Source: Helicobacteraceae bacterium (GTDB lineage Bacteria; Campylobacterota; Campylobacteria; Campylobacterales; SZUA-545). Taken from it: 32,478 nt of DNA. Location of the stretch: NCBI GenBank assembly GCA_031268655.1, contig JAIRWX010000069.1, positions 1-32,478 of the forward strand, read 5' to 3'. Shown piece after piece: positions 4,731 to 32,478 of the stretch. Within the stretch, counting starts at the first letter, position 1. The number at the start of each line of letters is the position of its first letter. Below the pieces are notes generated by a model that made no database searches, had not been told where the DNA came from, and saw only the letters and a program-made list of their open reading frames with translations. Position numbers and translations under genes: made by a program.

Positions 4731-5595
4731 TTACGCGCCGCTTTTACGTCTGTTGTCCTCCTTGCACAACATTTGACAATTTCCAGCGACAGTTTTACCG
4801 CCCTTGCTCCACGGCGTGATGTGGTCGGCGCACCATAGCCGTTATACAACTTACCCCAATTCACGCCTTTCATTTCTTTGCGGTAATTCTTGAAAGTATG
4901 TTCCACCCATTCAATAACCGCCCTGAAATACAGCCGCAACTCTGATCGTGCTGGCGCTGGCTCATATACTCTTCAATCTTGCCACGGCTTAACCAGTCCA
5001 ACGCTCTTTCTAACTAGTCTTGTCGTATCGGACTACCAACCACATATTTTTCCGCCAAGCCTTTCGCTGGGGCGTTCGATTTTGAAAACTTCAACTTTGC
5101 GTCCGAAAGCCAAGGACCCGTATAAATTGCATTGCGAAGTTCTTGTGCAGTCAGTTTCTCGCCCGCAATGTTAATAATCTTAAACCAATCCAACTTTTCC
5201 TTGTCCGTGCCATCGCAAAAGTAGATTTGTAGCGGGTAGTTTAAGATTTGTTCTTGTTCCTCGCCCGTCAAATTATGAAAAGCGTAAGGATTGCCGTCAA
5301 ATTCCACCGAAAAATCGCCCTTGATATATTGGCAAAAAGAAATCGTGCGTTGTTGCCCGTCCATTACCTCGTAACCGCCGTCATCACGCGCCACCCAATA
5401 CATCACATTCAGCGGAAAACCCTTGCGAATAGTCCGCACCACCTCGTTGCGTTGCTCGTCCTTATAGACGAACTCCCGTTGATAGGCGGGGCGAATATCA
5501 AGTTTACCGCCATAACCTACTACGCCCGCTTCGGCGTTATCGATATAACCATTAACCACTTCGCGTACTGTTATCTGTTTTAGTTCAATTTTCAC
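4731..5595 (-). pseudogene. DUF262-HNH endonuclease-like gene, broken
   Basis: The 193-residue frame (5014-5595, GTG start) is an N-terminal DUF262 domain. It has the DGQQRT motif in YEVMDGQQRTISF, the preceding RPAYQREFVY, and FKIINIAGEKLTAQELRNA. It stops at an in-frame TAG at 5012-5014, yet the same frame continues with LERALDWLSRGKIEEYMSQ. The reading then shifts to RLYFRAVIEWVEHTF and [16 protein letters not shown], and shifts again to [19 protein letters not shown] ending [13 protein letters not shown]-stop at 4731. The last piece is an HNH-nuclease C-terminal half. The stretch that should carry the first zinc cysteines, between LYNGYG and ADH, is missing. So the gene has one stop, at least two frame changes and a deletion. 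It overlaps the preceding methyltransferase by the GTGA sequence, so the two were once one operon. DUF262 proteins include modification-dependent nucleases, which fits a defence role. Confidence 0.85.
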
Positions 5596-6655
5596 TTTAA
5601 GCCCTTTCGTTTAATTACTATTCGCGAATACGGGCAATTCGTTTTGCCATTCTTTGTTATCGAAACATCAGTTCGTCCACGATAGTTTCGCGTTACACCC
5701 AATGTTTTACCTAAATCACCAAATGGTATGCCCACGATTTCAAACTGGTCGGGATTAAACTTGTCTAGGAATGCGTCAGGAACGCCCATGCAGCCATCAT
5801 AGTCATATGGTATTTCAGCAGTCTTTTTAACATCAATGCCATTAAAATTATCGTAGCGTGGGTATTCTTCAGGCGAATATTTTTTATATAATGTCAAAAA
5901 CTCGTGGCGTTTTGTGGTATCAAGATTTGTAACCCAACCAATGTTTCCGAATTTCTTCATAGTGTTGTCGGGTTGCATAAATTGTTTTGCTCGTCCATAG
6001 CCAAGCCATAACTTATTGTCCTTGATTAACTTAAAAACTTCCTTATAATGAAGCGCCGTATCTGGGGCGATTATTACGAACTTTTTATCGTATTCCATTA
6101 ATTGCGCAATATATTCACGAAATAACGAAAAAGGCGGATTAGTGGTAACCACGTCAGACTGTTTAAGAAGTTCTACGCACTCGTCGCTTCGGAAGTCGCC
6201 ATCGCCGTCAAGATAAGTTAGGATTTTAGAATTACCGCCACTTTTAAGCGTAGCCTTTTCCTGCTCCAACATTTTTTCAACATCGGTTATATCAATACTT
6301 CCGTTACCGTCCACATCTGCAATTTGGTCGAGTTCGATTTTATAGGTGTGATTTGCATATTTTTCATACCTTTATGCTTTATCGGCATGTCGTCGCCAAA
6401 TAGCGATAATTGCGTATTGGCGATAGGGCTGGGGTCGTAGCAGGTCGCTATCAGTTTCTTTAAGCCCAACTGGTTAAAGTTCATCGCAAAATACTTGAAA
6501 AAGTTGCTTTCAAAAGGGTCGTCGCAATTACAAAAAACCGCCTTATCTTTAAGCTGGTCTTTATAGTGTCGCAATTCGTTTTCAATATCGGCGAGTTGCG
6601 TATAAAACTCGTCGTTCTTCGCATTTTTTGCCGTTTGTAACGATGATGTTGCCAT
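5592..6655 (-). pseudogene. EcoRI-family adenine-specific DNA methyltransferase, frameshifted
   Basis: Two ORFs (6287-6655 and 5592-6314) are halves of one gene. The first half reads MATSSLQTAKNAKNDEFYTQ, then HYKDQLKDKAVFCNCDDPFE, where FCNCDDP is the SAM-binding region of the EcoRI-methylase family. The second half carries the catalytic TNPPFSLFREY (motif IV). In the correct frame the join reads YEKYANHTYKIELDQIADVD, whereas the upstream frame at that point reads GMKNMQITPIKSN. A single missing base near 6368-6373 accounts for this. Restoring it gives about 354 residues, near the family size (M.EcoRI is 326). The gene is AT-richer than the chromosome around it. It may once have protected DNA from, or marked it for, the DUF262-HNH partner. 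A sequencing error instead of a true mutation is possible but less likely, since the partner is also broken. Confidence 0.85.
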
Positions 6656-7035: not shown

Positions 7036-7110
7036 TGGCTCCGGATGCTGGATTCGAACCAGCGACCAAGCGATTAACAGTCGCCTACTCTACCGCTGAG
7101 CTAATCCGGA
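7036..7110 (-). tRNA. tRNA-Asn(GTT)
   Basis: The complement has acceptor stem TCCGGAT/ATCCGGA, D-arm GCTCAGCGGTAGAGT, anticodon loop CTGTTAA (anticodon GTT) on stem GGCGA/TCGCT, T-arm with GGTTCGAATCC and an encoded 3' CCA. Its 3' end points toward the decayed methyltransferase islet. Confidence 0.95.
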
Positions 7111-26747: not shown

Positions 26748-29048
26748 ATGAGAACTTACGCAGTCAAATACGAATCGCAACGGCAGATCGAGGATTTGGC
26801 GGAGAAAAACGGTTTGCGCCTAGCGCCTAATTTGCTGGCTACCGTTTTTTGCGCGACGCCAAACGCTCTTTTTGCAATCGGGCAGACGCTAGAGACGTTG
26901 TTGCCAAAGGCTTCCATAGCGGGGCTTAACGTTTGCTTGGCGCTATGCGACGACGATTTTTACGACAACGAAACCACGATTGTATTTACCGATTTTGAAA
27001 ACGTGAAACCAATTGTGTTTTCCTTTAACGAAGCGAGCGAAGCCAACGCCAAGAAGGCGATTTTGGAGTTGAAAGCGTCAAACGCGAATAACGCGCTGGT
27101 GTTTTGCTCGCAAAGCCAATGCGAATTCAAACCGTTTTTGCGATCGCTGGGCAAGAGGCTAGATACGATCGTTTGCGTAAATTCTATCGCCGCCTCGCTG
27201 ATACGCGACGGCGTCCAAAGCCACGGCGGCGCGATCGTCGTCGCCTTCGACGGCGCCGACTTTGCGTTCAGAATCAAAAAGAGCGTCGCGCCCATTGCGA
27301 TGGGCAAAGAGTTAACGATCACAAAAATTGACAAAAACCGCATTTTGGAACTTGATCGCAAGCGCGTCGAGGAGGTTACAAAATTTTATCTCGGCGCTAA
27401 TCCGCAATCCGACGCTTTCGCCTATCTTAAAGCCGCCGATAACCGCATAGCCGCCAAGATCAACGGCTCGCTCTTCATGAATTGCGAGGAGGGCGAAGCC
27501 TTGCGACTTGGGATACTGCCAAAAACCGCGTTTGATTACGGCGGATACGAGGAGCTAACGCGCGACAGGGCGCTGTGGCAGTTTTCGACGCGCAGCTTTA
27601 AGCGGGTTCGGGCTTCCGGTTGCGTCGCCGAGAGCGTTTTTTTGGCGCGAGAGTCGTTATTGGAACAAGTTGACGAGCTTTTGATATGGAGCGACGAAAC
27701 GGAGGACGAGTTCAAGGCGATGCGCGAGACTTTCGCCAATAACTTTGCGCGCGAAGAAGACTCTATGATCCGTCTGTTGAGCGGTTTAAGCGAAGATCTA
27801 GTCGAGCAGACTCGACAAAACGCGCTAAAGTTCTCGTCACAAAACTTAACGGCTTCGGCGCGCAGAGATTCGCTTACAGGTCTGCCCGGGCGCGACAGCT
27901 TTATCGAGGCGCTTTCGATGGCGAAAAGTCCGTCGGCGGCTATTTTTAATATTGAACGTTTTCGGGACATAAACGATCTATACGGCTACGACGCGGGCAA
28001 TCATATTATCAAAGAGCTTGCCGCGCTGCTTGTCGCCTCGCTTGGCGAAAATGTGCCGCTGTTTAGGATTGGGGGCGATCTGTTCGCCGTTTTAGCCGAT
28101 GGTTACGCCGAGGAACGATTCTTATGTAAAATCAATTCGGCGCAATCGATCGTAGGCGCGACGATCTTTTTAGAAGAGACGCTTGCCGCGTCCAATATCC
28201 GTCTGCGAGCGGGCGTGGCGTATGGTATCAAACAGACGCTCTCGCGCGCCGAGGACGCTTTGAGAAGCGCCAAGCGCAAGCGAACGTCGATCGTGATCGC
28301 GCCCGACGGCGACAATAACACAGCGCAAGAGAATCTTAAAATGCTCAACGTGGTTAGACAGGCGGCAATGCAGCCGTGGTGGACGCTAGCCAATTATCAG
28401 CCGATCGCGAGGGTAAGCGACGGGCAAATCGTAAAATACGAGGCGTTAATGCGATTACGAGACGCCAACGGACGCATCTATCAACCCGCCGCGTTTTTGG
28501 AACTCGCCAAACGATCGCGTTACTATCAGGAATTGACCAAACATATCTTTACCGGCGCGCTTAAACTTTTCAAAGACAGGCGCGAAGCCGTCGCGATCAA
28601 CCTAGCGCCGGAGGATATCCAAAATAATGAAACAATGTCCTATATAGGTTCGCTGATCGCCGAATTTGGCGAGCCGGAACGCATAACGTTGGAGGTAACC
28701 GAATCGGAAATGATCGAGGACTACGAAACGACTATCGAGGCGATTAGCAAAATGAAAAAATGGGGCGCGGCGATCGCCATCGACGATTTCGGAAGCGGGT
28801 ACAGCAATTTTGCTTACCTGATCAAATTTCAAGCCGACTACATCAAGATCGACGGCTCTATAGTGCGCGAGGTCGACAAAAACGAGAAGGCGTATCAGAC
28901 CATGGCGGCGATTGTGGATTTTGCCAAGCGGCTCGGACTGGAGACGATAGCGGAGTTTATCTCAAGCGAATCGATCGCGCAAAAAGCAAAAGAGGCGGGC
29001 GTGGACTATTGGCAGGGATACTATATCGGACAGCCCGCGCCGCTATAA
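26748..29048 (+). CDS. FIST-GGDEF-EAL signalling protein, cyclase motif degenerate
   Basis: The 766-residue soluble protein has an N-terminal sensory region (~1-290) that resembles FIST_N plus FIST_C, domains proposed to bind small ligands such as amino acids. A helical linker (~300-365), a GGDEF domain (~370-520) and an EAL domain (~535-760) follow. The cyclase signature is RIGGDLFAVLA, with Leu replacing the catalytic Glu, so cyclase activity is unlikely and the domain may instead bind GTP or be structural. The EAL domain looks complete: YEALMRL, INLAPED, LEVTESEM, IDDFGSGYSNF, YIKIDGS and YWQGYYIG. It should hydrolyse c-di-GMP under control of the FIST ligand. The FIST assignment is by general resemblance and is less sure than the other domains. 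Confidence 0.85.
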   Translation: MRTYAVKYESQRQIEDLAEKNGLRLAPNLLATVFCATPNALFAIGQTLETLLPKASIAGLNVCLALCDDDFYDNETTIVFTDFENVKPIVFSFNEASEANAKKAILELKASNANNALVFCSQSQCEFKPFLRSLGKRLDTIVCVNSIAASLIRDGVQSHGGAIVVAFDGADFAFRIKKSVAPIAMGKELTITKIDKNRILELDRKRVEEVTKFYLGANPQSDAFAYLKAADNRIAAKINGSLFMNCEEGEALRLGILPKTAFDYGGYEELTRDRALWQFSTRSFKRVRASGCVAESVFLARESLLEQVDELLIWSDETEDEFKAMRETFANNFAREEDSMIRLLSGLSEDLVEQTRQNALKFSSQNLTASARRDSLTGLPGRDSFIEALSMAKSPSAAIFNIERFRDINDLYGYDAGNHIIKELAALLVASLGENVPLFRIGGDLFAVLADGYAEERFLCKINSAQSIVGATIFLEETLAASNIRLRAGVAYGIKQTLSRAEDALRSAKRKRTSIVIAPDGDNNTAQENLKMLNVVRQAAMQPWWTLANYQPIARVSDGQIVKYEALMRLRDANGRIYQPAAFLELAKRSRYYQELTKHIFTGALKLFKDRREAVAINLAPEDIQNNETMSYIGSLIAEFGEPERITLEVTESEMIEDYETTIEAISKMKKWGAAIAIDDFGSGYSNFAYLIKFQADYIKIDGSIVREVDKNEKAYQTMAAIVDFAKRLGLETIAEFISSESIAQKAKEAGVDYWQGYYIGQPAPL

Positions 29049-29054
29049 CCCCGA

Positions 29055-29070
29055 GCCGCCTACTGGCGGC
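29055..29070 (+). terminator. Hairpin after the FIST-GGDEF-EAL gene
   Basis: GCCGCC-TACT-GGCGGC is a perfect six-pair stem starting six bases after the stop codon. A T-run (GGCTTTT) follows 13 bases later, so termination is plausible but not classic. Confidence 0.5.
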
Positions 29071-29090
29071 GAAGCGTTAAACGGCTTTTA

Positions 29091-29110
29091 ACTATGCCTT
29101 ACTATGCCTA
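29091..29110. repeat. Tandem repeat at the chromosome/foreign boundary
   Basis: ACTATGCCTT is followed directly by ACTATGCCTA. It lies where base composition changes from the GCG-rich chromosome to the CCGG-rich element, so it may mark the junction. The rest of 29111-29365 has no gene. Confidence 0.4.
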
Positions 29111-29181
29111 TATATGATAGTAATTTATAGAAGAAACTTAATCAAGGCTCACTACAGAATTTTCCTGTACTTGACAAATTA

Positions 29182-29200
29182 CTTGACATTTCCTGTCAAG
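29182..29200. repeat. Perfect inverted repeat CTTGACA-N5-TGTCAAG
   Basis: The seven-base arms are perfect with spacer TTTCC. A further direct copy of ACTTGACA lies 11 bases to the left, so three TTGACA/TGTCAA half-sites are clustered within about 30 bases. Such a cluster could be an operator or a recombinase arm site of the phage-like element. Confidence 0.5.
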
Positions 29201-29365
29201 ACACCTGACCGGAAACTGCTTAATTACGGATGATATATTGATAGATTGTGGAAGATTGATAATGAAATATCACAATGGGAACAATACTAAAATAATGATT
29301 CTGATTTTTCACTAATTGTTTTTTGCAATTTTTCCGCAAAACAGCCAGGGGAAATGATCGGCCCA

Positions 29366-29770
29366 CTACCGAGTAGATTCCGCTTCTTGGGCGGCGGCCC
29401 GGCCCAAAATCATTGCAATAAAAAGACCAACCCCCATTGACACCGAAAGAAAAGCCCATACCGGATGGCCAGATATAAGTAAGACAAGGGCGGAAATGAT
29501 AAAAATGATCCCGATTATCAAAAGAATCCGGCCTCCGGTTTTTCCTACTGGAATAATTTCCGGATTGGGGGATTCTTTGGTGGAATTATCTGCACCAACT
29601 ATTTTATGCCTGGTGGAAACACCGGTCCCTGGAATCCCGGTATTCAAATAGGCTCCTCGACTACCAATATTTGTGGATAGACCTTTTCCTCCGATAGTAG
29701 TAGATACCCCCGATTTCGACAGATTGATCTTGACCCCAGGCGCTATCTTTGTTGATTTTCTAAACCGCAT
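29366..29770 (-). CDS. DUF4236 membrane protein
   Basis: The N terminus MRFRKSTKIAPGVKINLSKS, followed by GVSTTIGGKG, matches the DUF4236 family, short beta-rich repeats of unknown function found in bacteria and prophages. The C-terminal half has two membrane helices (ILLIIGIIFIISALVLLI and VWAFLSVSMGVGLFIAMIL). The ORF track begins ten codons earlier, but the ATG at 29770 has a G-rich ribosome site (GGGGGTG) and starts exactly at the family motif. The gene is 134 codons long and 36 bases downstream of the BRO gene on the same strand. In phages such membrane proteins could act in exclusion, but that is speculation. Codon use matches the phage-like block, not the chromosome. Confidence 0.82.
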   Translation of the reverse strand: MRFRKSTKIAPGVKINLSKSGVSTTIGGKGLSTNIGSRGAYLNTGIPGTGVSTRHKIVGADNSTKESPNPEIIPVGKTGGRILLIIGIIFIISALVLLISGHPVWAFLSVSMGVGLFIAMILGRAAAQEAESTR

Positions 29771-29806
29771 AATCACCCCCAGAAGGTTAAAGTTTAACAT
29801 CCCGGC

Positions 29807-30655
29807 TTAGCCGGTGGCAAGGGCTCCATTAAGGCAATCCGCAAGGGCACAGCCCATAAAAACCAGTTCCGGCTTTCCATATACCTTCTTTTGCTTATAT
29901 TCCAGGGCCGGATACAACTCTTTGATCCGCCTGACAAATATATTACGGGTTTCAGCCTTCCAAGTGTTCATATGATCCTGGTAAAGCCGGTATAAATCCC
30001 GGACCAGGACATAATCATCGGGGTTTCCGGTTATTTTCAGAGCCATTTTGGCAAAATTGTATATGGTGGGGTTCGCCTTTTTATGGGTTTCGGCGTATTC
30101 CATAAAATCATCATGGGTTTTGAATGACAAGGCACCCTTAATGGGGTTATCCGGTACATCCGGGGTATCAAAATTGAAGGCTAGGCGGCGGAATTCCCGG
30201 ACGGATATACGCCCTTCGTTAAGAATCATCCGTAATTCATGGATTCGGACAGTAGATGGTTCTTTCCAGGCTTCCTGTCCCAGCAGGGTATAGGTCCCGG
30301 TCTTGCGGATTGAAGGTATAACCTCCCCAGCTATCCATTTTTGGAAGGGCAAGGCGGCATCCTTATCGGACCGGGCCAGGAAGAAGTAAAGGCCCGGCTC
30401 TGATAGGCAAAGCATACTTTGGCTTTTTCTTGCCCTGGATGAGGGGTGAATCGGATTCACCTCAGATATAGGGGTCGGTATCGGATACCGACCCTTCCAT
30501 TCATCGGGAACATGGGCAAAAAGCCGGGCCGGATTGCTTGTCTTGGGATACCCCAAAACCCCGGCCACGTCCTTTCCTACCCACCAGGGTTCTCCATCCT
30601 TTATCACGGTACGAACTTCCCGGCCTTCATAGGTGAAATTTACCAGATCATTCAT
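29807..30655 (-). CDS. BRO-N antirepressor-like phage protein
   Basis: The 282-residue protein begins with a BRO-N domain (~1-115). It has VNFTYEGREVRTVIKDGEPW, then VGKDVAGVLGY, LCLSEPGLYFFLARS and FQKWIAGEVIPSIRKTGTY, the typical signature of phage antirepressors. The C-terminal region (~205-265), with VRDLYRLYQDHMNTWKAETR and NIFVRRIKELYP, resembles the winged-helix tail found after phage primases. A strong AGGAGG lies five bases before the ATG. It is transcribed together with the XRE repressor gene, which ends 51 bases upstream. Antirepressors usually inactivate or compete with the lysogeny repressor, which fits this neighbour. Confidence 0.9.
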   Translation of the reverse strand: MNDLVNFTYEGREVRTVIKDGEPWWVGKDVAGVLGYPKTSNPARLFAHVPDEWKGRYPIPTPISEVNPIHPSSRARKSQSMLCLSEPGLYFFLARSDKDAALPFQKWIAGEVIPSIRKTGTYTLLGQEAWKEPSTVRIHELRMILNEGRISVREFRRLAFNFDTPDVPDNPIKGALSFKTHDDFMEYAETHKKANPTIYNFAKMALKITGNPDDYVLVRDLYRLYQDHMNTWKAETRNIFVRRIKELYPALEYKQKKVYGKPELVFMGCALADCLNGALATG

Positions 30656-30706: not shown

Positions 30707-31096
30707 TTATGCCCGTTCTTCCGTTTTCCGCCTTTTTTCATCTTCCGGTACTTCCCCCCGCAGGGTTTGTTCATCGGACAAGAGCTTTTCCGTATATTCA
30801 ATAATCATCATCTGGGCTTTAGGGGAAAGCCGCCTGAAAAACCCAAGGAGCCGCCTTTCCCTTTCAGACAGCAGAGCCTCATCATCCATCATTTCACCCT
30901 TACCCTCACGGAGCCATTCCTCGTTTACCCCAAAGGTTAAGCAAATGAGATTGATTGTAGTCTCTGAAAAATTTGCCTTTCCTGCTTCAAACATAGAAAC
31001 ATGTTGGCTTGTAACCCCTATTTTTTGGGCAAATTTAGTCTGATTTAGCCCTAAATGCCTTCGAAGTGCCGTAATCCGGCTATTGATTGCTTCCAT
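30707..31096 (-). CDS. XRE-family phage repressor (Cro/CI-type)
   Basis: The 129-residue protein has an N-terminal helix-turn-helix (ITALRRHLGLNQTKFAQKIG, then VTSQHVSMFEAGKANFSETT) of the XRE family and a helical C terminus (LLSERERRLLGFFRRLSPKA) that probably dimerises. It lacks the Ser-Lys LexA-like protease domain, so it is not inactivated by self-cleavage; removal may depend on the BRO-type neighbour. The ATG at 31096 has AGAGGA upstream. It is divergent from the early genes at 31220, and the 123-base gap holds a strong promoter and three dyads, the classic layout of a phage genetic switch. Confidence 0.92.
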   Translation of the reverse strand: MEAINSRITALRRHLGLNQTKFAQKIGVTSQHVSMFEAGKANFSETTINLICLTFGVNEEWLREGKGEMMDDEALLSERERRLLGFFRRLSPKAQMMIIEYTEKLLSDEQTLRGEVPEDEKRRKTEERA

Positions 31097-31137
31097 AACT
31101 TCATTATCCTCTTAATCTACAAAAAAATCAAGAAAAA

Positions 31138-31203
31138 TGTAAATTACTTACAAAAGACCCTTGACTATGTAAATAATCTAAAGTATTATGTAGATAGTTT
31201 ACA
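31138..31203 (+). promoter_or_regulatory. Phage switch: early promoter with three operator-like dyads
   Basis: The promoter is TTGACT (31161-31166), a 17-base spacer and TATTAT (31184-31189). Three 15-base dyads share TGTA(A/G)-N5-(T/C)T(T/A)(C/A)A: TGTAAATTACTTACA at 31138, TGTAAATAATCTAAA at 31168 (imperfect) and TGTAGATAGTTTACA at 31189. The second lies in the spacer and the third follows the -10, so repressor binding would block transcription. The first overlaps a possible leftward -35 (TTTACA, 17 bases, GTAGAT) for the repressor gene, allowing autoregulation. Confidence 0.75.
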
Positions 31204-31219
31204 AATCAGGAGGCAAGCC

Positions 31220-31456
31220 ATGAAAATGACGGACAGGGAAAAGAGGCTTTTAGGGGCTTTTCACAAACTAGAAAACGAAAAAACCCAGGACGATGTTATC
31301 TACCAAACCGAGGCTATGGTCCGGGCGCAGGAAGCCCTTAAAGCGGATTACGGGCTTGTGGGGCCTGATGCGCCCCTTTTTAACGGAACGGGGGTCCTTA
31401 AAAGCCCCGCCTATGCCATATCCGGTCCCGGTCCGGCTATGGAGGCCCAGGCATGA
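31220..31456 (+). CDS. Small early phage protein of unknown function
   Basis: The ORF track frame begins far upstream across the promoter. The start is the ATG at 31220, with AGGAGG eight bases before it, giving 78 residues (MKMTDREKRLLGAFHKLENE). It is helical and charged in the first half and Gly/Pro-rich at the end, with no recognisable domain. The motif SERERRLLGFF in the repressor and TDREKRLLGAF here are similar, which may be chance or a shared interaction helix. Its end overlaps the next gene by four bases (ATGA). It is the first gene under the switch promoter, a position of cro-type or other early regulators in many phages. Confidence 0.8.
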   Translation: MKMTDREKRLLGAFHKLENEKTQDDVIYQTEAMVRAQEALKADYGLVGPDAPLFNGTGVLKSPAYAISGPGPAMEAQA

Positions 31457-32232
31457 AAGGCCGGACAATCCTTCAGCGAATAGCCGATGCCCTTGAGGCC
31501 GCCGGTATTAGCGTTTCCGGCATTGAAACCTGGGCGATGGTAGATGGCAGGGTGATTCCCGTGTCCTTGCGGGTACATTTTCCGCATATTGAAAATGAGG
31601 CGGTGATCGATTTTATTGAAAACTACATCATCTTTGATAATTCTGCTTGCGAAGACGTGTCAGGCTTATATCAGGCTTACATACAAACTGTGGATGAAGG
31701 CAATTTTTGCGTAGGTCGGAAAAAGTTCATGCGAATTGTAAAAAAATATTTTCCCGAATGCAAGATTCGGGGGACGCATAAGCCAGATGGGAAAATAGCC
31801 CTTATATTTTCAGGTATACGGTTCAATGCCCCAATGGAAACCGAAACAGTGAAATCCTCGTGTGATAGACAAAAAGCCGAAGAAGCCCGAATAAGGAAAG
31901 AGGCAGAATCAGAGGCCATCGATAGAGTAGAATCGGTCCTAGACACCATAAACGCCAATAAATCCCCCGATGATCCCCCGGCGGTCAGGGACCCCTGCGG
32001 GGAATGCGCTAATCCCGATTGTTTTTATTGCTCATTAAAAGATGGTACGCCCATAAAACTGTATGATCCGAAAGAAGCCGCCGCCGCCATGATGGCCGGG
32101 CGGGTTTTGCAAAATGAAAAAAAGGAAAAATGTTTCTGGGAAAATGATGGATTCCGTTATGAAGCAAAGACGGGGATGCGTTTTGTTCTTGCTGATCTTT
32201 CCGGCCTGTATGAGGAGGCCCGGTATGTCTAA
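31453..32232 (+). CDS. Phage early protein with primase-type helical segment and zinc-ribbon-like motif
   Basis: The 259-residue protein has an N-terminal alpha-beta part, a helical segment (~55-105; CEDVSGLYQAYIQTVDEGNF and GRKKFMRIVKKYFPE) that resembles the DNA-binding tails near phage primases, and a charged linker. A four-cysteine motif (C-x2-C-x4-C-x2-C at ~182-193, in CGECANPDCFYCSLKDG) likely binds zinc. A similar helical segment occurs at the end of the BRO-type protein. The gene overlaps the small early gene by four bases and the helicase/primase gene by eight. I do not recognise a named family. By position and motifs it is probably a replication accessory protein. Confidence 0.75.
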   Translation: MKGRTILQRIADALEAAGISVSGIETWAMVDGRVIPVSLRVHFPHIENEAVIDFIENYIIFDNSACEDVSGLYQAYIQTVDEGNFCVGRKKFMRIVKKYFPECKIRGTHKPDGKIALIFSGIRFNAPMETETVKSSCDRQKAEEARIRKEAESEAIDRVESVLDTINANKSPDDPPAVRDPCGECANPDCFYCSLKDGTPIKLYDPKEAAAAMMAGRVLQNEKKEKCFWENDGFRYEAKTGMRFVLADLSGLYEEARYV

Positions 32233-32478
32233 AAACCTGATTGCCCTTCAGGACGGAATCATTGACCTTAGCGGAGACTTTATCTCCTATGATGCAGACC
32301 GGCTTTTATTAAATGGTAAGAAACTGCCCTATACGGTTAAGGATGTCATGGAAGCCCCGCCGCCGGTGGCTTTTATAAAATTCCTGGAATCAAACTTTGC
32401 GGACCCGAAAACGGCGGAATCTTTAATCTATTATCTTTCACTAATCCCGGCAATAGAAACGGGCTTCAAGTATGGCGG
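32225..32478 (+). CDS. P4-type primase/SF3 helicase, N-terminal part, cut by the window edge
   Basis: This frame is absent from the ORF track because it runs off the end. It starts at the ATG at 32225 with GAGGAGG upstream and stays open for 84 codons. The sequence begins MSKNLIALQDGIIDLSGDFI, like the N GxxDL start of the D5_N domain, and continues with PPPVAFIKFLESNFADPKTA and SLIYYLSLIPAIETGFKYG. This is the pattern just before the Walker A loop of phage and plasmid SF3 helicases, in which the next residues would be a glycine-rich P-loop. The enzyme would unwind and prime the element's DNA. The family call rests on the short visible part. Confidence 0.72.
   Translation, partial: MSKNLIALQDGIIDLSGDFISYDADRLLLNGKKLPYTVKDVMEAPPPVAFIKFLESNFADPKTAESLIYYLSLIPAIETGFKYG

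Follow-up and report, generated by a model that had tools for sequence, protein, structure and literature searches.

The last ~3.1 kb of the window (the whole 32,478-nucleotide stretch of DNA analyzed here, which is one entire contig of a 76-contig, 1.63-Mb draft genome) appear to hold the region that governs immunity in a temperate ParAB phage of Treponema type, with a decoy-antagonist switch, a reading to which we assign a probability of about 0.62. As in phage immunity regions, a gene for an HTH repressor lies divergent from an early operon. The rightward gene across from it, orf78, is not Cro-like; profile comparison and structural modeling make it a homologue of the hairpin at the C-terminus of the repressor itself, with no HTH. 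This suggests that the virus activates itself by tying up its repressor with a detached copy of that repressor's pairing tail. No description of a genetic switch for a Treponema phage was found in the literature searched.

Judged from gene content, bases 1 to ~29,050 are Campylobacterota-like chromosome, and similarity to genomes of the same genus ends at a stop codon at position 29048. From ~29,300 onward, the tetranucleotide composition matched that of a Treponema phage contig (r = 0.90) rather than the rest of the contig (0.18), and codon usage behaved likewise (correlation of 0.77 with a Treponema relative versus -0.03 with the rest of the contig). Its sequence thus places the terminal ~3.1 kb in a Treponema-type ParAB phage, and the Treponema-like composition implies that they were either joined to the contig as a chimera or acquired very recently; these last 3 kb are best left out of the host chromosome. 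The junction itself (29049-29366), possibly an artifact of chimeric assembly, is an AT-rich join between host and element that contains a hairpin, CTTGACAGGAAATGTCAAG, at 29182-29200.

Gene order in the fragment is kept in its nearest relative, a Treponema MAG contig (L037/L084): a 259-amino-acid protein homologue, orf78 (67% identity), the switch, the repressor (57%), a BRO gene (65%), and a DUF4236 gene (84%), with SSB, ParA, and ParB beyond. In the window, the DUF4236 gene lies at 29366..29800 on the reverse strand (Pfam, 1.3e-20) and is syntenic in relatives. The 259-amino-acid early gene (31453..32232, forward strand) belongs to no known family: it had no Pfam or PHROGs match, and no close relatives were found by peptide patterns in the genome and viral collections, while its residues 157-259 were 54% identical to the L037 counterpart. 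Of the next early gene (32225..32478, forward strand) only the 5' part is present, as the contig ends at 32478; matches of 33-37% were found for it in two Treponema elements, L073 and L077. Homologues of orf78 adjoin such repressors in further Treponema-family genomes, several of them with ParA/ParB nearby. Phage structural genes were not seen within the window fragment; that linkage was seen in a relative, a Treponema ParAB contig (G019:C14, loci L073/L074) that carries a switch of this family together with tail sheath, baseplate, and tape-measure genes, so the switch family includes phages. The same contig also bears a diversity-generating retroelement with a reverse transcriptase, bAvd, and an Mtd-like domain.

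The repressor profile matched 174 of 200 Treponema-family genomes, often in multiple copies; among 298 genomes from the phylum to which the window belongs, the window itself apart, it drew weak generic HTH matches only. Some Treponema-family genomes (G019, G020, and G162 among them) encode up to 15-18 repressor-family copies each, which suggests many co-resident elements per genome with different operator words.

Direct reading of the sequence confirmed that three dyads are overlaid on a rightward early promoter, TTGACT-N17-TATTAT (31161..31189, forward strand; -35 at 31161-31166, -10 at 31184-31189). The initial annotation had called this promoter "ideal" and all three dyads TGTAA-N5-TTACA-type, both of which need tempering: the promoter is very good, with 10 of 12 consensus matches, but falls short of ideal, and only the first predicted operator is a perfect TGTAA-N5-TTACA. 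That site (TGTAAATTACTTACA, 31138..31152, centered at 31145) lies upstream of the -35; the second (TGTAAATAATCTAAA, 31168..31182, centered at 31175) sits in the promoter spacer and has a degenerate right arm; the third (TGTAGATAGTTTACA, 31189..31203, centered at 31196), with TGTAG as one arm, shares its first base with the end of the -10 and covers the expected rightward start site. Their centers are 30 and 21 bp apart, or about three and two helical turns. The 15-base dyad, sought elsewhere in the window and in the draft genome, proved restricted to the promoter. When up to two mismatches to the three-site consensus were allowed, these three places were the only matches in the window (6 counting both strands versus 0.66 expected, a comparison that is partly circular because the pattern was built from the three sites themselves), and no further copy with one mismatch occurred in the whole 1.63-Mb draft genome.

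Could the repeats have arisen by chance in AT-rich sequence near an ordinary promoter? The region is indeed AT-rich, and against dinucleotide shuffles the triple-site score of this single locus reached only p = 0.015. Comparison with related switches nevertheless makes this explanation very improbable. The closest relative has other operator words (CTAACAAAAAACGA) at the identical places, -16, +14, and +35 from the -35, and this three-site geometry was kept across 30 other switches even as the operator words differed. In those 30 loci, from which the window and its closest relative had been left out because the geometry had first been seen in those two, the sites within a locus resembled one another more than sites mixed between loci did (similarity of 29.4 versus 24.4 +/- 0.44), and within-locus similarity fell when the site geometry was shifted. 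No clear three-site signal was seen in roughly half of the family, most of these members being distant; nearly all members had a rightward promoter near consensus (TTGAC-N16/18-TATAAT-like).

Operator words also covaried with the protein predicted to read them. Across 32 loci, operator similarity tracked recognition-helix similarity (r = 0.41, Mantel p = 0.0002), and did so given the rest of the N-terminal domain (partial r = 0.30, partial Mantel p = 0.0002). The best match to the window operators was locus L098, tied with L110; of all the helices, that of L098, VTGQFVSML, most resembles the window helix, VTSQHVSMF, and the third site of L098 contains TGTAAGTAGCTTACA. We judge the three sites to be real operators on the strength of the geometry kept in 30 loci against mixed-locus nulls and of this helix/operator covariation, so that the presence on the early promoter of several operators specific for the repressor is strongly supported by sequence comparison.

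The repressor is an XRE-family protein of 129 amino acids (30707..31096, reverse strand) that matched Pfam HTH_3 (5.9e-11) and a transcriptional regulator/repressor family in PHROGs. Its AlphaFold2 (AF2) model (mean pLDDT of 83.7) places the HTH helices within residues 4-64 and a helical hairpin at residues 78-89 and 92-112. The recognition helix region (residues 29-37, TSQHVSMFE; 30986..31012, reverse strand) is supported by the helix/operator covariation, and the C-terminal hairpin (residues 78-112; 30761..30865, reverse strand), whose profile is homologous to that of the divergent small open reading frames (ORFs), is the predicted dimerization tail. No protease domain was found, as the initial annotation had noted, HTH matches alone being returned by Pfam and PHROGs. 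At another family locus, L104 (G169:C1), the repressor is 367 amino acids long, with a long C-terminal extension in place of the short tail; by eye, the extension resembles a LexA/S24-type protease, and a small divergent ORF was not found at that locus.

The leftward repressor promoter is predicted at 31103..31131 on the reverse strand, with a -35 of TTGATT (31131-31126), a 17-nucleotide spacer, and a -10 of GATAAT (31108-31103) that ends 6 nucleotides before the repressor ATG. Relatives keep TTGAYT-N~17-GATAAT, and a -10-like hexamer ending exactly 6 nucleotides before the repressor ATG occurred in 13 of 34 loci versus 1-5 at other spacings; from this spacing, a leaderless repressor mRNA is predicted. 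The earlier suggestion that the leftward promoter uses dyad 1 as its -35 is probably wrong, since relatives favor the TTGAYT/GATAAT pair, which is clear of dyad 1. The corresponding candidate, TTTACA-N18-TAGATT, is possible (9 of 12 matches) but weaker than the family-conserved pair. Site 1 is centered ~49 bp upstream of the expected leftward start and does not overlap the -35 of that promoter. In the leftward spacer, ATCTACA (31115..31121) is a possible weak fourth operator half-site (z of 3.0 at the family level, p = 0.19 in the window alone), and a fourth operator within the leftward promoter is accordingly put forward only tentatively.

The divergent gene, orf78 (31220..31456, forward strand), is preceded by a Shine-Dalgarno sequence, AGGAGG (31208..31213), 6 nucleotides before its ATG. 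The first 44 residues of its product align to repressor residues 77-117, the repressor-tail-like hairpin itself spanning residues 4-44 (31229..31351, forward strand). When the profile of 30 small ORFs was compared with that of 30 repressor tails by hhalign, the match had a probability of 96.6% and a score of 46.3; the best of 300 column shuffles scored 13.9 and the reversed control 8.7. The homology held between subgroups (93-96% in cross-comparisons). AF2 predicted a matching two-helix hairpin in repressor and orf78; in the latter it comprises residues 5-20 and 23-43, with pLDDT of 77-86 over the first four ten-residue blocks, a disordered tail, and an overall pLDDT of 64.7. Between orf78 and its L037 homologue, dN was 0.13 and dS 1.26 (dN/dS of ~0.1), indicating purifying selection. 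Searched against 200 Treponema-family genomes, the small-ORF profile gave 62 matches, 51 of which lay no more than 800 bp from a listed family repressor, in divergent orientation; the remainder comprised 3 on repressor tails themselves, in three genomes, and 8 elsewhere, of which two were at contig ends. Searches with orf78 yielded no HTH, no Pfam or NCBIfam family, no SinI-family match in Pfam at E values up to 10, and no credible relative in the PDB by either sequence or the fold of the model. Partner-specific co-evolution of tail and small ORF was also considered and dropped: an initial excess of similarity in cognate pairs mostly vanished when each was set against the pairing with the nearest relative (17 wins, 12 losses). 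Outside this set, other phage contigs (IMG/VR loci L152, L160, L196, and L210) have HTH-less ORFs of 43-52 amino acids that point away from neighboring XRE genes; these short ORFs matched the small-ORF profile weakly (E of 0.004-0.02), and the decoy arrangement may therefore reach beyond Treponema.

From its homology, model, and divergent placement, we infer that orf78 is a decoy antirepressor of the SinI/SinR kind. SinI inactivates SinR by binding it and breaking up its multimers (PMC6123443). A Foldseek search with the repressor model placed SinR from the SinR/SinI complex (1b0n_A) second and arbitrium repressor structures lower in the ranking. In both the Bacillus subtilis system and the window, an XRE repressor whose C-terminus forms a helical hairpin is accompanied by a small HTH-less partner, and, as judged from sequence, that partner is homologous to the repressor's hairpin. 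The two differ in that SinR/SinI is a chromosomal operon, whereas here the genes are divergent phage genes across shared operators, and in that orf78 lacks a SinI-family Pfam match.

In the mechanism that we propose, the XRE repressor would turn off the rightward early promoter by binding its three sites, while being expressed from the back-to-back leaderless promoter, which site 1 would leave free and might stimulate. Should repression lapse, the rightward promoter would make orf78, which would pair with repressor subunits through the shared hairpin, remove functional repressor, and lock the switch open by positive feedback, as SinI does to SinR. Repression by binding, heterodimerization, release, and positive feedback are each inferred steps. 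As the repressor has no self-cleaving domain, an antagonist of this kind would offer a route to induction.

If SinI/SinR is the nearest working model, the nearest map is that of the CI-MOR switches of phages TP901-1 and phi13, in which divergent genes for a repressor and a small modulator flank back-to-back promoters and three operators (PMC8516035). The window shares this map, and TP901-1 CI likewise lacks self-cleavage. In the main rival of the decoy model, orf78 would be a MOR-like modulator that binds the repressor tail, and the resulting complex, instead of being plain inactive repressor, would still bind DNA and repress the leftward promoter. The equivalence of the maps and the weak family-level fourth site in the leftward promoter speak for such a mode; orf78, however, matched neither an HTH nor any other domain, and its sole detected homology is to the repressor tail. 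We regard a MOR-like mode as unlikely, if worth keeping in mind. Compared with the CI-MOR switches, the relationship of orf78 to the repressor's own tail is a probable difference, and the operator words and the C-terminal architecture of the repressor differ as well. The decoy reading also has company among small proteins that inactivate phage repressors, as do Qtip and Coi (PMC11323111), along with arbitrium AimX, and as is predicted for orf78; the repressor-AimX structure of phage Phi106 was among the Foldseek matches. Antirepressors under quorum-sensing control have little to no homology among one another (PMC11323111). The difference from Qtip, Coi, and AimX is that orf78 is apparently derived from, or shares ancestry with, the tail of its presumed target.

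Resemblance to the lambda OR region (cI/cro), suggested by the initial annotation, holds in part. Three operators overlie a strong promoter in a phage-type switch, and in both systems operators are overlaid on back-to-back promoters; lambda cI mRNA from PRM is leaderless, like the predicted repressor mRNA here. Operator placement differs, however, the repressor has no LexA/S24-type protease domain, and the divergent gene does not encode an HTH (Cro) protein. The BRO-type gene reported behind the repressor was borne out (29807..30655, reverse strand; Bro-N, 1.2e-18; anti-repressor Ant phrog_130, 8.2e-33). Given these Ant matches, and given that BRO genes adjoin several of these repressors, the switch could be a simple lambda-like one in which BRO carries the antirepressor function and orf78 is an unrelated early protein. 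We find this improbable: BRO is read in the leftward direction of the repressor, whereas most orf78-type genes lie under the operator-controlled promoter, and these genes share the repressor tail.

Returning to the decoy reading, and extending it from this locus to the large family of Treponema mobile-element switches, we lean slightly toward a general scheme in which a tail homologue without an HTH, driven by the operator-bearing promoter, traps the repressor as a built-in decoy, while operator words and recognition helices co-diversify to give many immunity specificities on one fixed promoter scaffold. The family would then be a simple and repeatedly diversified switch, with a fixed promoter, interchangeable operator/recognition-helix pairs, and a small tail-related partner. 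If true, this would explain how a repressor without a protease domain is switched off, and would supply many naturally occurring repressor-operator-antirepressor sets with which to test immunity specificity and build synthetic switches.

Elsewhere in the window, a low-GC island (0.40-0.43) at 5014-6655 on the reverse strand lies beside a tRNA-Asn gene (7036-7110). Within it, an EcoRI-type adenine methylase is broken across two overlapping frames (6287-6655 and 5592-6314), and there is also a short GmrSD_N (DUF262-type) ORF; from its sequence, the stretch looks like a decayed restriction-modification island.
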